A stretch of DNA of 64,000 bases. Source: Gluconobacter sp. P1C6_b (GTDB lineage Bacteria > Pseudomonadota > Alphaproteobacteria > Acetobacterales > Acetobacteraceae). Below the pieces are notes generated by a model. The model searched no databases, had not been told where the DNA came from, and saw only the letters and a program-made list of their open reading frames with translations. The stretch covers positions 1-64,000 of the forward strand of contig NZ_JACRVU010000003.1 of the NCBI RefSeq assembly GCF_018811945.1. Reading direction: 5' to 3'. Position numbers and translations under genes: made by a program. Of this stretch, positions 48,032 to 55,784 are shown piece by piece (position 1 is the stretch's first letter; each line of letters starts with the position of its first letter).

Positions 48032-48517
48032 TCAGACCTGCGCCAGTTCCTGCAAAGCCCGCAGAATATCGTCGGGCGACGGCGGACATCCCGCAATCGA
48101 ACGCCGCACCGGTGTCAGCGCCTTCAAGCCCCCCAGCGTCGCATAACCGGCCGGAAAAGGACCGCCATCCACCGCGCAGGCTCCTACAGCAATCAGGCTA
48201 CGGCCTGGCGGCATGGCCCGCCACACCCGGTCAACCATTTCGGCGCAGACGCGCGTCACCGCTCCAGTCAGCAGCAGCCAGTCCGCATCCGCCGGATCGC
48301 TCACACAGACAAAACCCGCCTGCTCCAGCGCGAACGCACTGCCATTGAGGGACTCGATCTCCATGAAGCATCCCTCGCAGCCACCGGTCTCAAGGACATA
48401 CAGCCCGATCGGACGCTCCCGCCGCGGAACTGCTCCTTCCGCAGACGGCCGCCCGCGCGTTGCATCCATGAAAGCGTAAAGCAGGCTCAGAGGCCCCGTC
48501 CGTTGCACAGTCTTCAC
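48032..48517 (-). CDS. Hydrogenase-4/complex I-like small subunit (HyfI/NuoB family)
   Basis: The 161-residue protein starts with GTG overlapping the stop of the large-subunit gene (GTGA). It keeps all four ligands of the proximal [4Fe-4S] cluster: Cys47 and Cys50 ('GGCEGCFMEIE'), Cys114 ('VGACAVDGGPF') and Cys144 ('IAGCPPSPDDIL'). This is the NuoB/HycG/HyfI pattern. The short length and lack of further cysteines match group 4 hydrogenase and NuoB-type subunits. It is the last gene in the leftward six-gene cluster. It should sit at the membrane arm junction with the large subunit and accept or donate one electron pair. Confidence 0.85.
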   Translation of the reverse strand: MKTVQRTGPLSLLYAFMDATRGRPSAEGAVPRRERPIGLYVLETGGCEGCFMEIESLNGSAFALEQAGFVCVSDPADADWLLLTGAVTRVCAEMVDRVWRAMPPGRSLIAVGACAVDGGPFPAGYATLGGLKALTPVRRSIAGCPPSPDDILRALQELAQV

Positions 48518-49953
48518 AGCGCAATCCCCGCCGGTGAAATCCCGATCGAGCCCAGAGCCGCCGGCACCCGGCTGACAGGATAGCCCCGCAGCATCGCGCC
48601 CAGAACCGGAAGAAGGGACACGCCCGGGTCCCGCACATGCAGACTCTCGATCCGCCCGTCTTTCAAGCGCACCCAGTACCACACGTCTCCGCGCGCGCCC
48701 TCGGCCACACCAATACCCTCATCCGTCCGGTCCGGCGCGGGCTCGTCGTCTTCCAGACCGATACTCCCCAGGATCCGCTCCAGCAGCTTCAGGGAGTCGC
48801 GGATTTCCGCAAGCCGCAGTCCTTCACGCGCCCGGGCATCCCCCTGGCTCGATCCTGTCGCCCGCAACGCTTCCAGCCGCATTCCGGCCTCCCGCCGCCG
48901 CATATCCATGCTGCGACCGCTCGCGCGCCCGGTCACGCCCCCCACGGCAAAGCGCTCCGCAAGCCGCACATCCAGAACCGCGAACCCGTCCAGACGCGGC
49001 GCAAAAACCCGGTGAAGTTCTTCCAGCGCCGCAAGACGGGGCTGCATCGCCGCATGAACGGCCTGAGCCAGTGGCACGATCTCAAGACCTTCGCGAAACC
49101 CGTCACAGGCCACCATATCCATCAGACGACGCGAAACCCCCTGCTCCGCACAGGCCCGCGCAATGGCTTCCCGCGCATGATCGCAATGCGTCGCGAACAG
49201 TTCCGCATCCACACCCCGCGCCGTCCGGGCCATATCGAACAGATGGAGCGACATCCGCTCGATCTCCAGCAGAAGCATCCAGACATCCCGGATCCCCGGT
49301 CCCGGAACCAGTCCACGCGCCTGCGCCACAGCCCTCGCAAAGGCCAGCGGATGCGCCACGAACCCACCCGCCGTCATCCGCGACACCAGCGGCATGGCCT
49401 CTTCCGGCGTCCGTCCCAGCAGGCGCGACATGACCCCGCGATGCGCCCCGCCTGCACAGACCTCCACACTCCGGACCTTGCCCTTCAGAACCTCGAAGGA
49501 CAGCTCCAGCGGTCCGCTTAGCCCCGTTTGCTCGGGACGCAGCAGATGGCGTCCCGCCAGCGGCCGCAATCCTCCCGCCGCCGGTCCCGGACGGGACGAC
49601 AGCGGCCAGGTGGACGTCCAGCCGCCCTCATCCAGCGCCGGCGCTCCGTTCCCGCGGGCATCCATCGCTTCCACGCCATACAGGTCATACGCCACGCGTT
49701 CGCCCCACTCGGCCCCCGCAAAACGCGAGGACGGCGCGAGATACCGCCGCTCTTCCACTGCCGTACTCGCCACAAGCGGGCGATCCCCTTCCAGCAGCAG
49801 CACATAGGCACGGGCATCATCCGCCCAACAGGATATCAGCGGCAGCGTCGTACCCGGCGCGGACAGCATCGCGCTCCACTGTTCGGCATCAAGATGATAA
49901 TGCGACAGCGCAACCCGCTCGCCGCTGCGGATCATCCGCCCCATACCGATCAT
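48514..49953 (-). CDS. Hydrogenase-4 large-subunit-like protein lacking NiFe cysteines (HyfG/NuoCD-type)
   Basis: The 479-residue protein fuses a NuoC-like N-terminus ('SRFAGAEWGERVAYDLYGVEAMD') to a NuoD/HyfG-like body. The segment 'SRMTAGGFVAHPLAFARAVA' aligns with the hydrogenase motif R-x-C-G-x-C-G-x-A-H; the two cysteines are Thr194 and Gly197 here. At the C-terminus 'RDPGVSLLPVLG' aligns with D-P-C-x-x-C: Gly444 and Leu447. Both nickel-binding pairs are therefore gone, so it cannot be a [NiFe] hydrogenase. The ATG 49953 overlaps the upstream stop. The subunit may instead form a quinone-like or other substrate cavity, as NuoD does. Confidence 0.85.
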   Translation of the reverse strand: MIGMGRMIRSGERVALSHYHLDAEQWSAMLSAPGTTLPLISCWADDARAYVLLLEGDRPLVASTAVEERRYLAPSSRFAGAEWGERVAYDLYGVEAMDARGNGAPALDEGGWTSTWPLSSRPGPAAGGLRPLAGRHLLRPEQTGLSGPLELSFEVLKGKVRSVEVCAGGAHRGVMSRLLGRTPEEAMPLVSRMTAGGFVAHPLAFARAVAQARGLVPGPGIRDVWMLLLEIERMSLHLFDMARTARGVDAELFATHCDHAREAIARACAEQGVSRRLMDMVACDGFREGLEIVPLAQAVHAAMQPRLAALEELHRVFAPRLDGFAVLDVRLAERFAVGGVTGRASGRSMDMRRREAGMRLEALRATGSSQGDARAREGLRLAEIRDSLKLLERILGSIGLEDDEPAPDRTDEGIGVAEGARGDVWYWVRLKDGRIESLHVRDPGVSLLPVLGAMLRGYPVSRVPAALGSIGISPAGIAL

Positions 49954-51041
49954 GGCCGCCACCCCGTCACCGGATGCCAGATCAGAAACAGCGGACCACA
50001 CAGCCCCCCCAGCAGCAGAACCGCCTGCATCACCGCCACCATGCCCCGCTCTCCCCGCGCAAACGCCGGCAGAAGCGTCCTGTGCCGCACAGACCACAAA
50101 GCAGGCAGCAGACACACCACCAGCAGAACAAGCTGCTCCGTTTCAAGCGAACGCCCGATCCCGACAAGTGCAGAGAACACCGGCCAGGGCGCAGCTCCGG
50201 CCGCGATCCCGTCCTCGCCATCAGCCGCCCCACGCAGATCCAGAACCGCAAGCCCGAGCGCCGCAAGCAGCAGCAGGACCAGCGCCGTGCCTTCCCCGGT
50301 CGCGGCCGCCAGGGCCCCCAGGGCAGACAGCATCGGCAGGGACATGTTCCGGCCCGAAGAGCGTGACGAGACGAGCATGATGATCGTCCCGAACCCCGCA
50401 ATCAGCATCAGCAGATGAACCAGTGGATACGCACTCAGCCGGAACATCAGCATGAGTGCCGAAAACCGCAGTCCTGTATCCATAAGTGCGGCCTCAGGCG
50501 CCGGAGCCGGCGACGGCCCAAGCCCCGCCACCATGCACAGCCCCACCGTCAGCAGCACCGCACCAAGCGACGACTGCTGCATCGGAAGAAGCGACGCCCC
50601 CAGAAGCCCCAGAACCACACCGCCCAGCCGGCTGCGCGCCATGTCCCAGACAACGAGCGCCCTGCGCGGCCCACGCCCCTCGCGCCAGGCCAGCAGAACC
50701 GTTCCCGCGCCACACAGGACCGTCACGGCAAAAGCCGAGTGAATGTTCAGTGCCAGAAGCGCACAGCCCGTCACCAGAAACGGCAGGATCCGCCCGGTCC
50801 GGTCCTGAGCCTGTGGCAGAAGCAGTGGAATGGCCGTCACGATACACGAACATGCCGCTGCCAGCGCATCCGTTCCCGGCATGAGCCAGACAGCCAGCGG
50901 CGTAATGACGAGCCCGGCCACGGCAAAGGTCTGACTGCTGGCGGACTGGCGGTTTTCCGGCGTCAGAAGGAGCAGAAACGCCGCCAGAAGCGGCCAGACC
51001 GTTACGGCAAACAGCGTTCCGACAGGAGCAAGCGGATGCAT
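49950..51041 (-). CDS. Reduced antiporter-like membrane subunit (HyfF/NuoN family)
   Basis: The 363-residue protein has about 11-12 hydrophobic segments. The part 'PAPEAALMDTGLRFSALMLMFRLSAYPLVHLLMLIAGFGTIIML' resembles the HyfF/NuoN region around the discontinuous helix (consensus with A-E-A-P...L-x-x-G). However, the P-L-H-x-W-L-P motif before it is reduced to 'AGLGPSP', and typical channel Lys residues are not evident. HyfF is normally over 500 residues. The start ATG 51041 overlaps the HyfE-like stop. Assignment is by weak motif and by position between HyfE-like and HyfG-like genes. Confidence 0.65.
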   Translation of the reverse strand: MHPLAPVGTLFAVTVWPLLAAFLLLLTPENRQSASSQTFAVAGLVITPLAVWLMPGTDALAAACSCIVTAIPLLLPQAQDRTGRILPFLVTGCALLALNIHSAFAVTVLCGAGTVLLAWREGRGPRRALVVWDMARSRLGGVVLGLLGASLLPMQQSSLGAVLLTVGLCMVAGLGPSPAPAPEAALMDTGLRFSALMLMFRLSAYPLVHLLMLIAGFGTIIMLVSSRSSGRNMSLPMLSALGALAAATGEGTALVLLLLAALGLAVLDLRGAADGEDGIAAGAAPWPVFSALVGIGRSLETEQLVLLVVCLLPALWSVRHRTLLPAFARGERGMVAVMQAVLLLGGLCGPLFLIWHPVTGWRP

Positions 51042-51562
51042 CACACGTCCTCCACCCTGCGCCACGCCAGACGCGGCAGAAGCGTCACACCCAGCGCCCC
51101 CAGAACACCCCACAGGCTCAGCGCCGCCGCAAAAAGCGGCCATGAATGCAGCACGCAGGCCACGACAACCAGCCCGTCCGCAGCCCGCAGAAGCCCGGTG
51201 AACTGAACCAGCGGCGTCCCCCACGCAGCACCGCAAAGACCGCCCAGAACCGCTCCGGCCCCCAGAACAGGCGCAAGCCCCAGACCCGCACCGGACAGCC
51301 CGAGCGCAAGCAGCAGCACAAGCGTCCCGACAACCGGCAGAACAGCGGCCCGGTCCGGCGCTTCAGGCGCAAACCGCCGCAGCCAGGCCCAGGCCAGCAC
51401 ATTCAGCCCGACCAGCGCCGCGGACGTCAGAAGCGCCATCAGCCCCGAACAGACCGTCGCCCCCGCGAAAGCACAGACCGCCCCGTAAAGCGGTAGCCCC
51501 CTCCCGTCCTTGCCCAGCCCCGCCAGCGCCAGAAGCAGCAGTAATCCAAACCCGACGATCAT
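51041..51562 (-). CDS. HyfE-like membrane subunit
   Basis: The 173-residue protein has about six hydrophobic spans and almost no charged residues outside 'RRFAPEAPDR'. The order, length class and composition fit HyfE (about 216 residues), an Mrp/NuoK-related component. 'LAPVLGAGAVLGGLCGAAWGTPLVQFTGLLRAADGLVVVA' is the most conserved-looking segment. The start ATG 51562 overlaps the upstream stop by four bases. It is named mainly from its place between HyfC-like and HyfF-like genes. Confidence 0.6.
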   Translation of the reverse strand: MIVGFGLLLLLALAGLGKDGRGLPLYGAVCAFAGATVCSGLMALLTSAALVGLNVLAWAWLRRFAPEAPDRAAVLPVVGTLVLLLALGLSGAGLGLAPVLGAGAVLGGLCGAAWGTPLVQFTGLLRAADGLVVVACVLHSWPLFAAALSLWGVLGALGVTLLPRLAWRRVEDV

Positions 51563-52428
51563 GTGCCGAACCTCCCCGCCAAAGCCAGAAGAAGCGCCAC
51601 CCCCGCAAACAGCGCCGTCAGCCGGGCACTCCGCTCCTGCGCCGTCAGACGCAGCCCGACCGCCACCGCGACCGTCAACACCAGCCGTCCGCCCAGCGCC
51701 AGCAACCCAAGCCACCAGCCCTGCACGCCACCCTGCACCAGCCCCACACTCACCGGCAGCGCCAGATCCGCCAGTAGCAGCAGCCAGCCGCAGTTGAGCA
51801 CATCGGCAATACTGCGCGTGGCCTCACGTTCATGACGGTCCCGAAGTCCGGACAGCATCAGCGTCACGTCGTCCGAGCGCAAAGGCGGACATGCAATCCC
51901 GAGCGCCAGCGCACAGGCCGCCAGCGCCCCTTCCAGACCCGGCTCAGGCTCGATATGCAGCATTGCGCACAGACCGGACAGACCGTCCGTCCCCGGTGCG
52001 GCCAAAGCAATCAGGGCCTCGGTCAGACACAGGAGCAGAACTGCTGGCACCAGACGCGCCCCTTCGCCCTGCACCAGACCCGGCCCCAGAAATCCGCGTC
52101 CCAACAGCACGACCAGCCCGATAACAAGCGGATCAGCCAGTGACGATAAAACGGACCCGGTCGTGACTGCGGGCAGACACACAAGCGTCAGCACACCTGC
52201 CGTGAGGGCCAGCGCCGGACGTCCGCCCAGCGGAGCCTGCAACAGCGCTCTCCAGAAACGCATCGCCTGCAACAAACGGAACCGTACTGTCCCGACCGAC
52301 CGCCCCGCCAGCCAGAACGGCAGGCTGTCCAGACACCAGCCCATCACCGGCGCCAGAACGAGAAGCAAGCCCAGCTGAAACAGCGCTTCCAGCACGGACA
52401 GCAGAATCAACCCGATCTCATGCCCCAT
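51559..52428 (-). CDS. HyfC/NuoH-like membrane subunit
   Basis: The 289-residue protein has about eight spans, fitting HycD/HyfC (about 310-320 residues). 'LLVLAPVMGWCLDSLPFWLAGRSVGTVRFRLLQAMRFWRALL' resembles the N-terminal P-L-x-G...R-R-G-P-x-x-x-Q-x-x-x-D-x-x-K-L motif, and 'PPLRSDDVTLMLSGLRDRHEREATRSIADVLNCGWLLLLADLALPV' the region after P-x-D-x-P-x-T-H-L-E-L. Several glutamates normally seen in the latter are missing (the H-L-E-L part reads T-L-M-L). The stop of the upstream gene and its ATG share one base (TGATG). Confidence 0.68.
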   Translation of the reverse strand: MGHEIGLILLSVLEALFQLGLLLVLAPVMGWCLDSLPFWLAGRSVGTVRFRLLQAMRFWRALLQAPLGGRPALALTAGVLTLVCLPAVTTGSVLSSLADPLVIGLVVLLGRGFLGPGLVQGEGARLVPAVLLLCLTEALIALAAPGTDGLSGLCAMLHIEPEPGLEGALAACALALGIACPPLRSDDVTLMLSGLRDRHEREATRSIADVLNCGWLLLLADLALPVSVGLVQGGVQGWWLGLLALGGRLVLTVAVAVGLRLTAQERSARLTALFAGVALLLALAGRFGT

Positions 52429-53780
52429 CACGCCATCACTCCCAGCACCGCCAGAACGAGGCCAAGAAGCACAAGCCAGAGCCCCACCGCGCCCTGACGC
52501 AGATCGGGAAGGACAGGAGCCTTCACGCCCCGGACTGCCATGAAGCGACGCCGCCCTGCCACGATGACGCAACGTATTTTCCAGCCCAGGGACGGCGCTT
52601 CGTCAAACAGGCCGTCCCCTACCGAAAGCAGGTTTCCCAGCGCCGGAAGAAGCGTGGAGGCCGCCTGCACAATCCCGCCGGCAACCCGCCATGGACGCAC
52701 CAGCACACACCACAGAACTGCCCCTGTCAGCACAAAAGCCGGCAGCCGCAGAGAGGCTCCATCCCCGCCGCCCATACGCCAGACTGGCCAGACCCATTCC
52801 CCCCCCATGAAATGCAGGACCGGACTGACCACTCCGAACACCAGAGCGGGCAGCAGCAGACTTCCAGCCCCCACCAGCAGGACGGAAACGCCCGAAACAC
52901 GTCCCTGCCACGCACTGAACACCCGCCCCACAACCAGAATATCCGACAGACCAAGCAGACAGAGCAGCAGGGCAACCGCTACTCCAAGCACGCTCCACCC
53001 CTCGACGCCCGCAGCCATACCAAGCGCAGCGTGAATCCCGAGCCACAGGACAACCAGCCCCGGCAAAGGCGGAAACGGCAGCCGCAACACCGACAGCACC
53101 GGAAACACGCGTCCCAATGCGGCCGTCAGAACCAGCAGTGACAGATCGAGAAGTGTGGCTTCCAGTGCAATCCGGGCACAGACCGCAAGACCTTCCGCCT
53201 GCGCCGCCACGACCAGAACCATCAGAAGAACAGACCGCAAAAGCCCCAGATCTCCCGGACGACAGGCCCCGAGCACAGAGCGGCCAAGCAACCCGATCAC
53301 AGCGGCCCCAAGCCCCGCAACAAGCTCTGCCGAAACCGCCGCCGGCGCATGCCAGACCAGCGATACGCCCAGAATACCCATCACGGCAGGAAATGGTCCG
53401 CCCTCCTGCTCGCCGCCAGACCGGCGCACCAGCGCGGACCAGAACAGGACCAGCAACACTGCCAGCACGACGAATGTCTGAGCAGGAAACAGCGCGGACA
53501 GCAGCAGAGCCGGAACGCTCCATACTGCCGGACAGGCCTCCCGGTCCTGAGCCGCGATCACACCCAGCGCGACAGCCTGAACGGCTGGCGACAGGCCCAG
53601 AACCGCAGCCAGCGTCGCCAGACAGAGAACCACGGCTCTCCCCGGCCGCCCCGGCTGCATCGCCTGCACACAGGCAGGAATGACCAGAAGCGCCAGGCAG
53701 AGAGAAACCGGATCAACGTGGAAAAGGGAGGCGAGAATATGCAGGGCGCGGTCCGGACAAGAGGTGGAAACGGACCGCAA
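52428..53780 (-). CDS. Antiporter-like membrane subunit (HyfB/NuoL family, shortened)
   Basis: The 450-residue protein has about 13 spans. 'ALHILASLFHVDPVSLCLALLVIPA' looks like the D-x-L-S N-terminal motif of NuoL/HyfB, and 'RLPFPPLPGLVVLWLGIHAALGMA' like the P-P-L-x-G-F-x-S-E-W-L segment. The usual P-L-H-x-W-L-P and K-A-L-L-F motifs are not recognisable. HyfB is about 670 residues, so this is much shorter. TTG 53780 is the only usable start close to the aldo/keto reductase end, because an in-frame stop lies just upstream; the true N-terminus is uncertain. It is first of the six-gene cluster, 12 bases after the reductase. Confidence 0.65.
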   Translation of the reverse strand: MRSVSTSCPDRALHILASLFHVDPVSLCLALLVIPACVQAMQPGRPGRAVVLCLATLAAVLGLSPAVQAVALGVIAAQDREACPAVWSVPALLLSALFPAQTFVVLAVLLVLFWSALVRRSGGEQEGGPFPAVMGILGVSLVWHAPAAVSAELVAGLGAAVIGLLGRSVLGACRPGDLGLLRSVLLMVLVVAAQAEGLAVCARIALEATLLDLSLLVLTAALGRVFPVLSVLRLPFPPLPGLVVLWLGIHAALGMAAGVEGWSVLGVAVALLLCLLGLSDILVVGRVFSAWQGRVSGVSVLLVGAGSLLLPALVFGVVSPVLHFMGGEWVWPVWRMGGGDGASLRLPAFVLTGAVLWCVLVRPWRVAGGIVQAASTLLPALGNLLSVGDGLFDEAPSLGWKIRCVIVAGRRRFMAVRGVKAPVLPDLRQGAVGLWLVLLGLVLAVLGVMA

Positions 53781-53792
53781 TCATCACGACCG

Positions 53793-54638
53793 TCAGATCA
53801 TGGCGAGAGATACCTTGCGTTTCGGCGGAGGGAAAGCACTGTCCAGCGTTTTGAGATCCGCATCCGTCAGACTGATCTCCAGACTGGCCAGATTTCCGGC
53901 AACATGCTTTGGAGAGCCAGCCTTCGGAATGGCCATTACATTCGGCCGGCGCAGCACCCAGGCCAGCGCGATCTGCGCCGGATCAGCAGGCCCCAGGGAC
54001 GTCTCATGCCGCGACGCCACGTCCTTCAGCGCCGGATGTTCCAGAAGCTCTCCACCCTGCCCGAGCGGCGAATACGCCATCGTCACGGTGTCCGATTTCA
54101 GATCATGATCCAGAAGATCGAACTCAGTTCCACGATGTTCCAGATTGTAGAGAACCTGGTTGACCAGACAGTTCCCCGACAGGCTCTCGACCTCCTCCAT
54201 GTCATCGACATCGAAGTTCGAAACACCCCAGCCCCGGATCAATCCGTCATCCTTCAGATCCTCGAACGCGCGGATCGTCTCCTCAAGCGGCGTCCCCCCG
54301 CGCCAGTGCAGCAGATAAAGGTCCAGCCACTCCGTATCGAGATGCTTCAGTGAACGTCGGCACGCCTTGCGCACACCGTCATAAGACGCATTGGACGGCA
54401 CGACCTTGCTGACGAGATAGACATCATCACGCATATCCGCGATGGCCTCACCCACCAGCTTTTCCGATCGGCCATTGCCGTACATCTCGGCCGTATCAAT
54501 AACCCGCAGACCGGCCTCAAGCCCCTTGCGCAGGCTTTCGACCTCATCCGTATGCCGGGCCGCACTGTCGCCGACATTCCAGGTTCCCATTCCAAGCGCG
54601 GGAACCGTAACACCATTCCTGAGTGTGACTGTCTTCAT
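53793..54638 (-). CDS. Aldo/keto reductase
   Basis: The 281-residue NAD(P)H-dependent oxidoreductase is a single-domain TIM barrel. The catalytic tetrad is Asp48, Tyr53, Lys78 and His111 ('VIDTAEMYGNG', 'LVSKV', 'YLLHW'). 'IALAWVLRRPNVMAIPKAGSPKHVAGNL' is the C-terminal cofactor-binding region, with Lys favouring NADPH. It reduces aldehydes or ketones; the substrate is unknown. AGGAA lies seven bases before the ATG. It is 21 bases after a Rieske oxygenase gene and 12 bases before the hydrogenase-like cluster, all on one strand, so co-transcription is likely. Confidence 0.92.
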   Translation of the reverse strand: MKTVTLRNGVTVPALGMGTWNVGDSAARHTDEVESLRKGLEAGLRVIDTAEMYGNGRSEKLVGEAIADMRDDVYLVSKVVPSNASYDGVRKACRRSLKHLDTEWLDLYLLHWRGGTPLEETIRAFEDLKDDGLIRGWGVSNFDVDDMEEVESLSGNCLVNQVLYNLEHRGTEFDLLDHDLKSDTVTMAYSPLGQGGELLEHPALKDVASRHETSLGPADPAQIALAWVLRRPNVMAIPKAGSPKHVAGNLASLEISLTDADLKTLDSAFPPPKRKVSLAMI

Positions 54639-54659: not shown

Positions 54660-55784
54660 TCAGACAACGACAGGATCAGCCGGCTGTTCCCTCGAAACTT
54701 CAGTCTGCGCCGTCGTATCCGTTCCCGGCGCGACACCGTTCTGCGCCAGAAGATCCCGCAGTTTCCGCACGATGGGGAAGACCTCGACGTTATGATCGCC
54801 CCCCAGTTCGCGCCAGGCATTCTGCTCCAGTTCCATGATTTCACGGTCTTCTTCAAAGATCCGGTGCGTGAAGATACCCAGCGCAGGCCAGATCATGTCG
54901 ATCAGGAACGGCGTCTTCGGCCGCAGCACCGACAGCAGGCCGAAACACTGGGTGCTCATGCCATCCGCCATATTGGGCACATAAACGCTGAACAGTTCCA
55001 TGATCAGATCGCCGTCCTTGTCATGGATTTTCAGGCTCTGATACGGATAGGTCGTGCGGATGCTGACGACCTCCTCGACCGGCTGCTCCCGGTTCGGATC
55101 ATCATGATGCTTGCCGAAAATCAGGCGTTCCGCCAGGGGCTGCTGGTTTCCAGTCCGCGCGAAGCTGTAGCGCGCCTCGATGAAGTTCTCGCCCGCGTCC
55201 TGCCCAAGGAAACGCGCCCTGATCTGCCCCATCTGGCGGCGGTGCAGGAACTGATGGTTCATGTCCATCAGGTTTTCATGCATGAACGTGTAGTGGCATT
55301 TCACGACTGGACTGAAACGCCGCGTCTTGAACGCCGGATTGTCCACCTGCGCCAGAGGCGGCAACGGAACACTCTCCGCTTTTTCCGCATCGCCCGGGAA
55401 AATAAAGATCATCCCGCCCGCCTCACGACAGGGATACGTCTTCACACCATTCGGCAGCTTGCCCTTGCCCAGATACGGCACATCAATGCACCGCCCGGAA
55501 CGGCCATAGGCCCAGCCGTGATAGCAGCACTGGACCGCCTCACCGCTGACCTTGCCCAGACTGAGCGGAACCTGACGGTGCGCGCAGCGGTCTTCGAGCG
55601 CGAAGACACTTCCTTCTTCGGGACGTACCAGTGCAATGGGAAAGCGCCCGAACCGTCGCCCGATCGTCTTGCCGCGCTTGAGATCCTTAGACCAGGCCAG
55701 CGGATACCAGAAGTCGGGATTGATATCGACGCGACGAAGATCAATTTTCAAAGGCGCGGGGGAAGAATTCGTGGGCTCTGGCAC
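54660..55784 (-). CDS. Rieske non-haem iron oxygenase
   Basis: The 374-residue protein has a Rieske [2Fe-2S] domain (Cys67-x-His69 and Cys86-x-x-His89: 'EDRCAHRQVPLS', 'AVQCCYHGWAY'). The mononuclear iron site follows in 'HENLMDMNHQFLHRRQMG', with Asp174, His177 and His181. This is the alpha-subunit layout of ring-hydroxylating or O-demethylating oxygenases. A dedicated reductase or ferredoxin gene is missing nearby. The start is GTG 55784. The C-terminal 40 residues are polar. The substrate is unknown. It leads the leftward unit with the aldo/keto reductase and the hydrogenase-like genes. Confidence 0.9.
   Translation of the reverse strand: MPEPTNSSPAPLKIDLRRVDINPDFWYPLAWSKDLKRGKTIGRRFGRFPIALVRPEEGSVFALEDRCAHRQVPLSLGKVSGEAVQCCYHGWAYGRSGRCIDVPYLGKGKLPNGVKTYPCREAGGMIFIFPGDAEKAESVPLPPLAQVDNPAFKTRRFSPVVKCHYTFMHENLMDMNHQFLHRRQMGQIRARFLGQDAGENFIEARYSFARTGNQQPLAERLIFGKHHDDPNREQPVEEVVSIRTTYPYQSLKIHDKDGDLIMELFSVYVPNMADGMSTQCFGLLSVLRPKTPFLIDMIWPALGIFTHRIFEEDREIMELEQNAWRELGGDHNVEVFPIVRKLRDLLAQNGVAPGTDTTAQTEVSREQPADPVVV

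Follow-up and report, generated by a model that had tools for sequence, protein, structure and literature searches.

The 64,000-nucleotide stretch of Gluconobacter sp. P1C6_b DNA analysed here (contig NZ_JACRVU010000003.1, positions 1–64,000; termed the window) carries a six-gene operon whose products resemble subunits of Escherichia coli hydrogenase-4 (Hyf). We assign a probability of about one half to the reading that these products form a relative of complex I and hydrogenase-4 that is neither a hydrogenase nor an ion pump and that has been retained to serve as a redox relay, a sensor or a scaffold with a single cluster; the positive function named in this reading is a guess. The six minus-strand open reading frames (ORFs) occupy positions 53780–48032 in the order B, C, E, F, G and I, corresponding to HyfB-C-E-F-G-I-like proteins, an arrangement that matches E. 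coli hyf once A, D, H and J are left out. Neighbouring genes, as read from the sequence, overlap by one base (B/C and E/F) or by four bases (C/E, F/G and G/I). The initial annotation had described six leftward overlapping genes in this order with intact frames, and the ORFs, the overlaps of 1–4 bases and the absence of internal stops all bear it out.

The soluble core comprises G (48514–49953), a HyfG/NuoCD-like large subunit of 479 residues (PF00346), and I (48032–48517), a HyfI/NuoB-like small subunit of 161 residues (PF01058). Direct family searches matched G to Complex1_49kDa (NuoD; 6.8e-13) and I to Oxidored_q6 (NuoB; 1.5e-23), and the top matches of their profiles among solved structures were HycE (2.4e-55) and HycG (6.8e-39), respectively, of E. 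coli formate hydrogenlyase (FHL). The G protein is 98% identical to that of G. potus and 97% identical to that of G. oxydans in a named scan that returned 37 loci. Both NiFe cysteine pairs are missing from all 39 Acetobacteraceae G proteins aligned with E. coli HyfG, including those of relatives with intact pump residues; the window large subunit lacks the two NiFe-binding CxxC pairs of a group 4 [NiFe] hydrogenase. The four cysteines of I, which are predicted to bind one N2-type [4Fe-4S] cluster, are invariant in the 19 aligned rows and present in all 25 genus loci beyond the window. Among nine more I genes that do not adjoin G, seven fit the cysteine pattern and one (L136) has four cysteines in a variant motif. 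The window motif is the hydrogenase-type CxxC instead of the tandem CC found in the N2 subunit of respiratory complex I. A group 4-like large subunit without NiFe ligands and a NuoB-like small subunit with the [4Fe-4S] cysteine set are features of Ehr (energy-converting hydrogenase-related) complexes, and the earlier description of a NiFe-less, Ehr-like soluble core holds. That description had also listed HyfA, HyfD, HyfH, hyp genes and formate dehydrogenase as absent. The three hyf genes are indeed missing, and the maturation gene HypD was not found anywhere in the window genome (control positive in four of 14 genomes), while the other hyp genes and formate dehydrogenase were not searched genome-wide.

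For comparison, 40 neighbourhoods from genomes of the family with a G match were inspected (the 20 ranking directly below the window itself, the 9 after those and 11 picked from lower ranks), giving 41 loci with the window. Direct searches returned no credible Pfam or NCBIfam match for B, C, E or F, and in a comparison of the window proteins with the E. coli Hyf proteins at E up to 1 only G and I matched. The four membrane ORFs were named from their place in the operon, from intermediate sequences and from predicted folds. For C (51559–52428; 289 residues), a HyfC/NuoH-like membrane anchor, the profile of the window's clade matched that of canonical HyfC at 97.6% across 279 columns. The remaining three were connected stepwise, from clade to intermediates and from intermediates to canonical proteins: F (49950–51041; 363 residues), a shortened HyfF/antiporter-like subunit, at 99.2% and 96.5%; E (51041–51562; 173 residues), a HyfE-like membrane subunit, at 97.6% and 77.6%; and B (52428–53744; 438 residues from a CTG at 53744, or 450 from a TTG at 53780), a remodelled HyfB/antiporter-like subunit, at 88.5% and then 99.9% to E. 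coli HyfB and its relatives. The iterated B profile reached 22 of the 41 loci. An AlphaFold model of F (predicted local distance difference test, pLDDT, 86.4; predicted TM-score, pTM, 0.89) gave 57 Foldseek matches at E up to 0.001, with TM-scores up to 0.76 by query length; 50 of the 57 were listed and every one is a complex I, NDH, Mrp, MBS or FHL chain. The B model (pLDDT 84.0, pTM 0.82) has antiporter-like complex I/NDH chains as its top eight matches, followed by unrelated proteins. Proton_antipo_M, searched at E up to 0.1, had no match among 30 B and 30 F proteins of the clade, whereas all six canonical F proteins (from E. coli and five Acetobacteraceae) matched. The stepwise profile comparisons and the predicted fold of F indicate that the membrane subunits descend from Hyf-type subunits. 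The refuting outcome named by the initial annotation, a lack of significant profile similarity of the membrane genes to Hyf or Nuo subunits, was what direct searches gave, but the similarity emerged from stepwise profiles and the F fold.

The residues associated with pumping have been lost from this arm. Eight positions were scored, namely the glutamate of transmembrane helix (TM) 5, the lysines of TM7 and TM10 and the glutamate of TM12 in both B and F, in 40 rows aligned with E. coli Hyf. L056 (contig end) and L059 (a near copy of L058) were omitted here and from the tree described below, only B could be scored in L067, L068 and L070 (no F was found) and the B of L066 is divided across two ORFs. 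E. coli, L057, L062 and L071 retain all eight residues, whereas L066 has six and L060 five. The window retains none, and 33 further non-canonical rows have 0 or 1 of 8; uncharged residues or gaps stand at the canonical Glu/Lys sites of B and F. In C the acidic motif is missing from the window protein, and similar loss is seen across the clade. Independently of any alignment, F and C of the window contain no lysine and B only two (386 and 405); other genus members have 0–8 lysines in F, 0–3 in C and 0–14 in B. Clade B proteins are 404–492 residues long versus 554–679 in the pump-intact relatives other than L066, and F of the window has 363 residues versus 483–526. In a tree of the large subunit built by a quick method, an Acetobacteraceae clade (SH-aLRT, an approximate likelihood-ratio branch support, of 99) unites 32 rows that have at most one of the eight residues, and a separate five-row clade has 5 to 8 of them (SH-aLRT 95). 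The pump residues may have been lost more than once, because L061 and L070 lie on separate branches and yet lack them too. Ehr complexes would be expected to contain Mrp-like antiporter subunits with ion-translocating residues; in the window the fold of F is antiporter-like, that of B weakly so, and the residues are not there. The aligned ion-translocation residues being gone, the proposal of an energy-converting machine is not supported.

Several observations weigh against the reading of a non-pumping Hyf relative. Direct clade-to-canonical profile comparisons are weak for B (75.0%), F (13.7%) and E (2.1%); the Foldseek matches of B all have E ≥ 0.001, with a best TM-score of about 0.4, and the B proteins of the clade align poorly in the pump-residue regions. 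B is a remodelled protein and the weakest assignment among the subunits. Of the conserved charged positions, six of 14 in F and six of nine in B fall inside predicted helices, four of those in B within one helix near the C-terminus (its other three are in loops or at helix ends), and C, which has no structure model, retains a conserved Asp221. Several HycC antiporter residues of E. coli FHL other than those named below are dispensable for hydrogen production (PMC9474812, in the part drawn on). Finally, the I protein of one distant relative (L134) retains only three of the four cluster cysteines, and four of the genus I matches each carry a single stop flag, at the match end; these are probably the terminal stops of the genes themselves. 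The L134 protein reads GGSGGC at the site of the first cluster cysteine elsewhere.

The conserved charges raise the possibility of a rewired ion or small-molecule path, in which the membrane arm would have acquired new charged residues in place of the canonical set. Asp188, Arg192 and His209 of F and His235 of B, all conserved within helices, are compatible with such a path, as is Asp221 of C. It is nevertheless improbable given the absence of lysine from F and C of the window, the uncharged residues or gaps at the canonical Glu/Lys sites and the location of eight of the 14 conserved charges of F in loops or helix ends. On the predicted models, the placement of the conserved charges fits interfaces in part and is also compatible with the rewired path. 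Altering the E-channel of HycD in E. coli FHL lowers hydrogen production by 98–99%, and E391A and D354A in HycC lower it by 45% (PMC9474812, same part). Because several other HycC changes leave hydrogen production intact there, the loss of residues seen here would concern ion movement and not redox chemistry.

The residues of G at the positions aligned to His38, Tyr87 and Asp139 of Thermus thermophilus Nqo4 are Ser, Ala and Gly. We take His38 and Tyr87 to be quinone-site residues and Asp139 to be a coupling residue. Exchange of electrons with quinone, which the initial annotation had considered possible, is unsupported, though still conceivable, because the counterparts of the two quinone-site residues are Ser and Ala. 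All three substitutions also bear on another explanation, a working Ehr-type oxidoreductase that does not pump, in which some donor would reduce the cluster of I and quinone or some other acceptor close to the membrane would take up the electrons. It accords with the retained cluster cysteines and with the redox coupling suspected for Ehr complexes in other bacteria (PMC6349859, in the portion used here), but the six genes include no ferredoxin-type or dehydrogenase subunit, and with the substitutions in G this leaves it rather unlikely.

All six genes are under purifying selection. Median ratios of nonsynonymous to synonymous substitution rates (dN/dS; Nei–Gojobori method, NG86; up to 16 pairs) are 0.170 for B, 0.106 for C, 0.041 for E, 0.079 for F, 0.071 for G and 0.092 for I, with E under the strongest constraint of the six; the medians for the flanking ROK kinase and aldo/keto reductase genes are 0.017 and 0.061. 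No internal stop occurs in any of the six genes in 26 sequences per gene, window included (two B sequences are partial at contig ends). Decay of the operon, for which a dN/dS near 1 had been proposed as the sign, is ruled out by the low medians (0.041–0.170) and the intact frames. G is full-length in all 26 genus genomes and I is present in all 26.

This constraint bears on the idea of a relic retained for structure alone, like the deranged bc1 complex of Acetobacteraceae. That family offers a precedent, since its bc1 and COX1-like proteins are reported to have been kept without cofactor ligands, perhaps in a structural role such as stabilising complex I (PMC10715153, in the part consulted). 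For the window operon we regard such a relic as quite improbable: dN/dS is far under 1, internal stops are absent and the genome shows no canonical complex I in need of stabilising. The last point follows from the absence in the window genome of any match to Proton_antipo_M or NADHdh (controls positive in 13 and 11 of 14 genomes) and of any second Complex1_49kDa or second NuoB-type match. A second NuoB-type gene (G219:C189:56345-56683) was seen in one of the 26 genus genomes, which suggests that this genome encodes a true complex I.

Across the family, a G match was obtained in 182 of 200 genomes, a count that includes the NuoD of complex I. I does not adjoin G in 11 of the 41 loci; loss of this iron–sulfur subunit was considered and ruled out, as whole-genome searches found I in all 15 genomes searched, in eight of them relocated away from G and the operon (L129–L136).

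The start of B was compared in 20 genus sequences, window included, that is, 26 less six (L111 and L112 at contig ends; L128 and L032–L034 more distant). No ATG, GTG or TTG start is conserved among the sequences read, and the CTG at 53744 is probably the start, because an in-frame CTG lies ten codons ahead of the conserved Asp8 in 20 of 20, and in 15 of the 20 the stretch from the upstream stop to Asp8 contains no ATG, GTG or TTG in frame.

Directly upstream of B on the same strand lies an aldo/keto reductase gene (53793–54638), followed further upstream by a Rieske-type oxygenase gene (54660–55784). Neighbours were compared in 51 loci, comprising the 41 neighbourhoods plus ten centred on displaced I genes. 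The aldo/keto reductase family stands beside the complex, upstream of B, in 20 of the 51 and does not adjoin it in L035–L042; among the matches listed, the pepA and holC families occur in 27 of 51 loci each and a family that starts like the phosphatidylserine decarboxylase of the window in 21 of 51, the window copy itself lying outside the slice used. Conserved neighbours were rejected as a clue to function and are read as vertical inheritance.

Our preferred reading of a non-hydrogenase, non-pumping relative can be put as follows. The six genes would encode an assembled membrane complex derived from a NiFe-less ancestor of hydrogenase-4/complex I type, with the architecture kept: G and I would sit atop a C/E/F/B membrane base and carry a lone [4Fe-4S] cluster. 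Such a complex would neither produce hydrogen nor pump ions by the known mechanism. It might serve some partner as a one-electron relay or as a redox or oxygen sensor, or act as a scaffold in which the cluster is structural.

Relatives of complex I are generally understood to couple redox chemistry to ion pumping. Here a clade has lost the known active residues from both halves and is still under selection, which raises the question of what the architecture serves without them, and the natural series from pump-intact through partly lost to fully lost could be used to test ideas about coupling. G. oxydans is an industrial organism with a published transposon knockout collection (PMC8602642, consulted in part), so the function is directly testable. 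In two G. oxydans knockout papers the main text contains none of the terms hydrogenase, hydrogenlyase, NADH, respiratory, complex I and oxidoreductase. The open-access literature, surveyed mostly at listing level, yielded no account of the complex from acetic acid bacteria.

A six-gene hyc-like set in mycobacteria is a possible further lead. E. coli hydrogenase-4 and FHL share the subunit order with the window operon and have homologous G and I subunits; unlike them, the window lacks the NiFe ligands and the A, D, H and J genes, and its membrane arm is remodelled. The deranged bc1 and COX1-like proteins of Acetobacteraceae are likewise respiratory proteins retained after ligand loss, but belong to other complexes, and the main text of that work (PMC10715153) uses neither 'Hyf' nor 'Ehr'. 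Ehr complexes are relatives of group 4 NiFe hydrogenases without Ni/Fe ligands, described as having Mrp antiporter-like subunits and suspected of translocating charge (PMC6349859, same portion); the NiFe ligands are absent from both, whereas the antiporter-like subunits of the window are without the aligned residues. The closest counterparts in gene content are two plasmid operons, on pTA1_4 of Rhizobium ruizarguesonis (L176) and pHY1 of Methylovirgula (L177), which are NiFe-less and have the identical order hyfBCEFGI, annotated as hyfB, NuoH, hyfE, hyfF, NuoC and NuoB. Window B, C, F, G and I share 22–33% identity with the Rhizobium proteins (E left out). The window has this gene set and order without the intact pump residues: both plasmids keep all eight, by inspection, together with the C motif, and their B (673 and 665 residues) and F (487 and 482 residues) are longer than those of the window. 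These operons rule out the six-gene set as a product of gene loss, the sense in which the initial annotation, partly supported as a whole, had called the complex reduced; since the same set stands on both plasmids, the reduction lies within the membrane proteins and not in gene content. The gene content is not new, and the unusual part is a membrane arm that has lost its pump residues.

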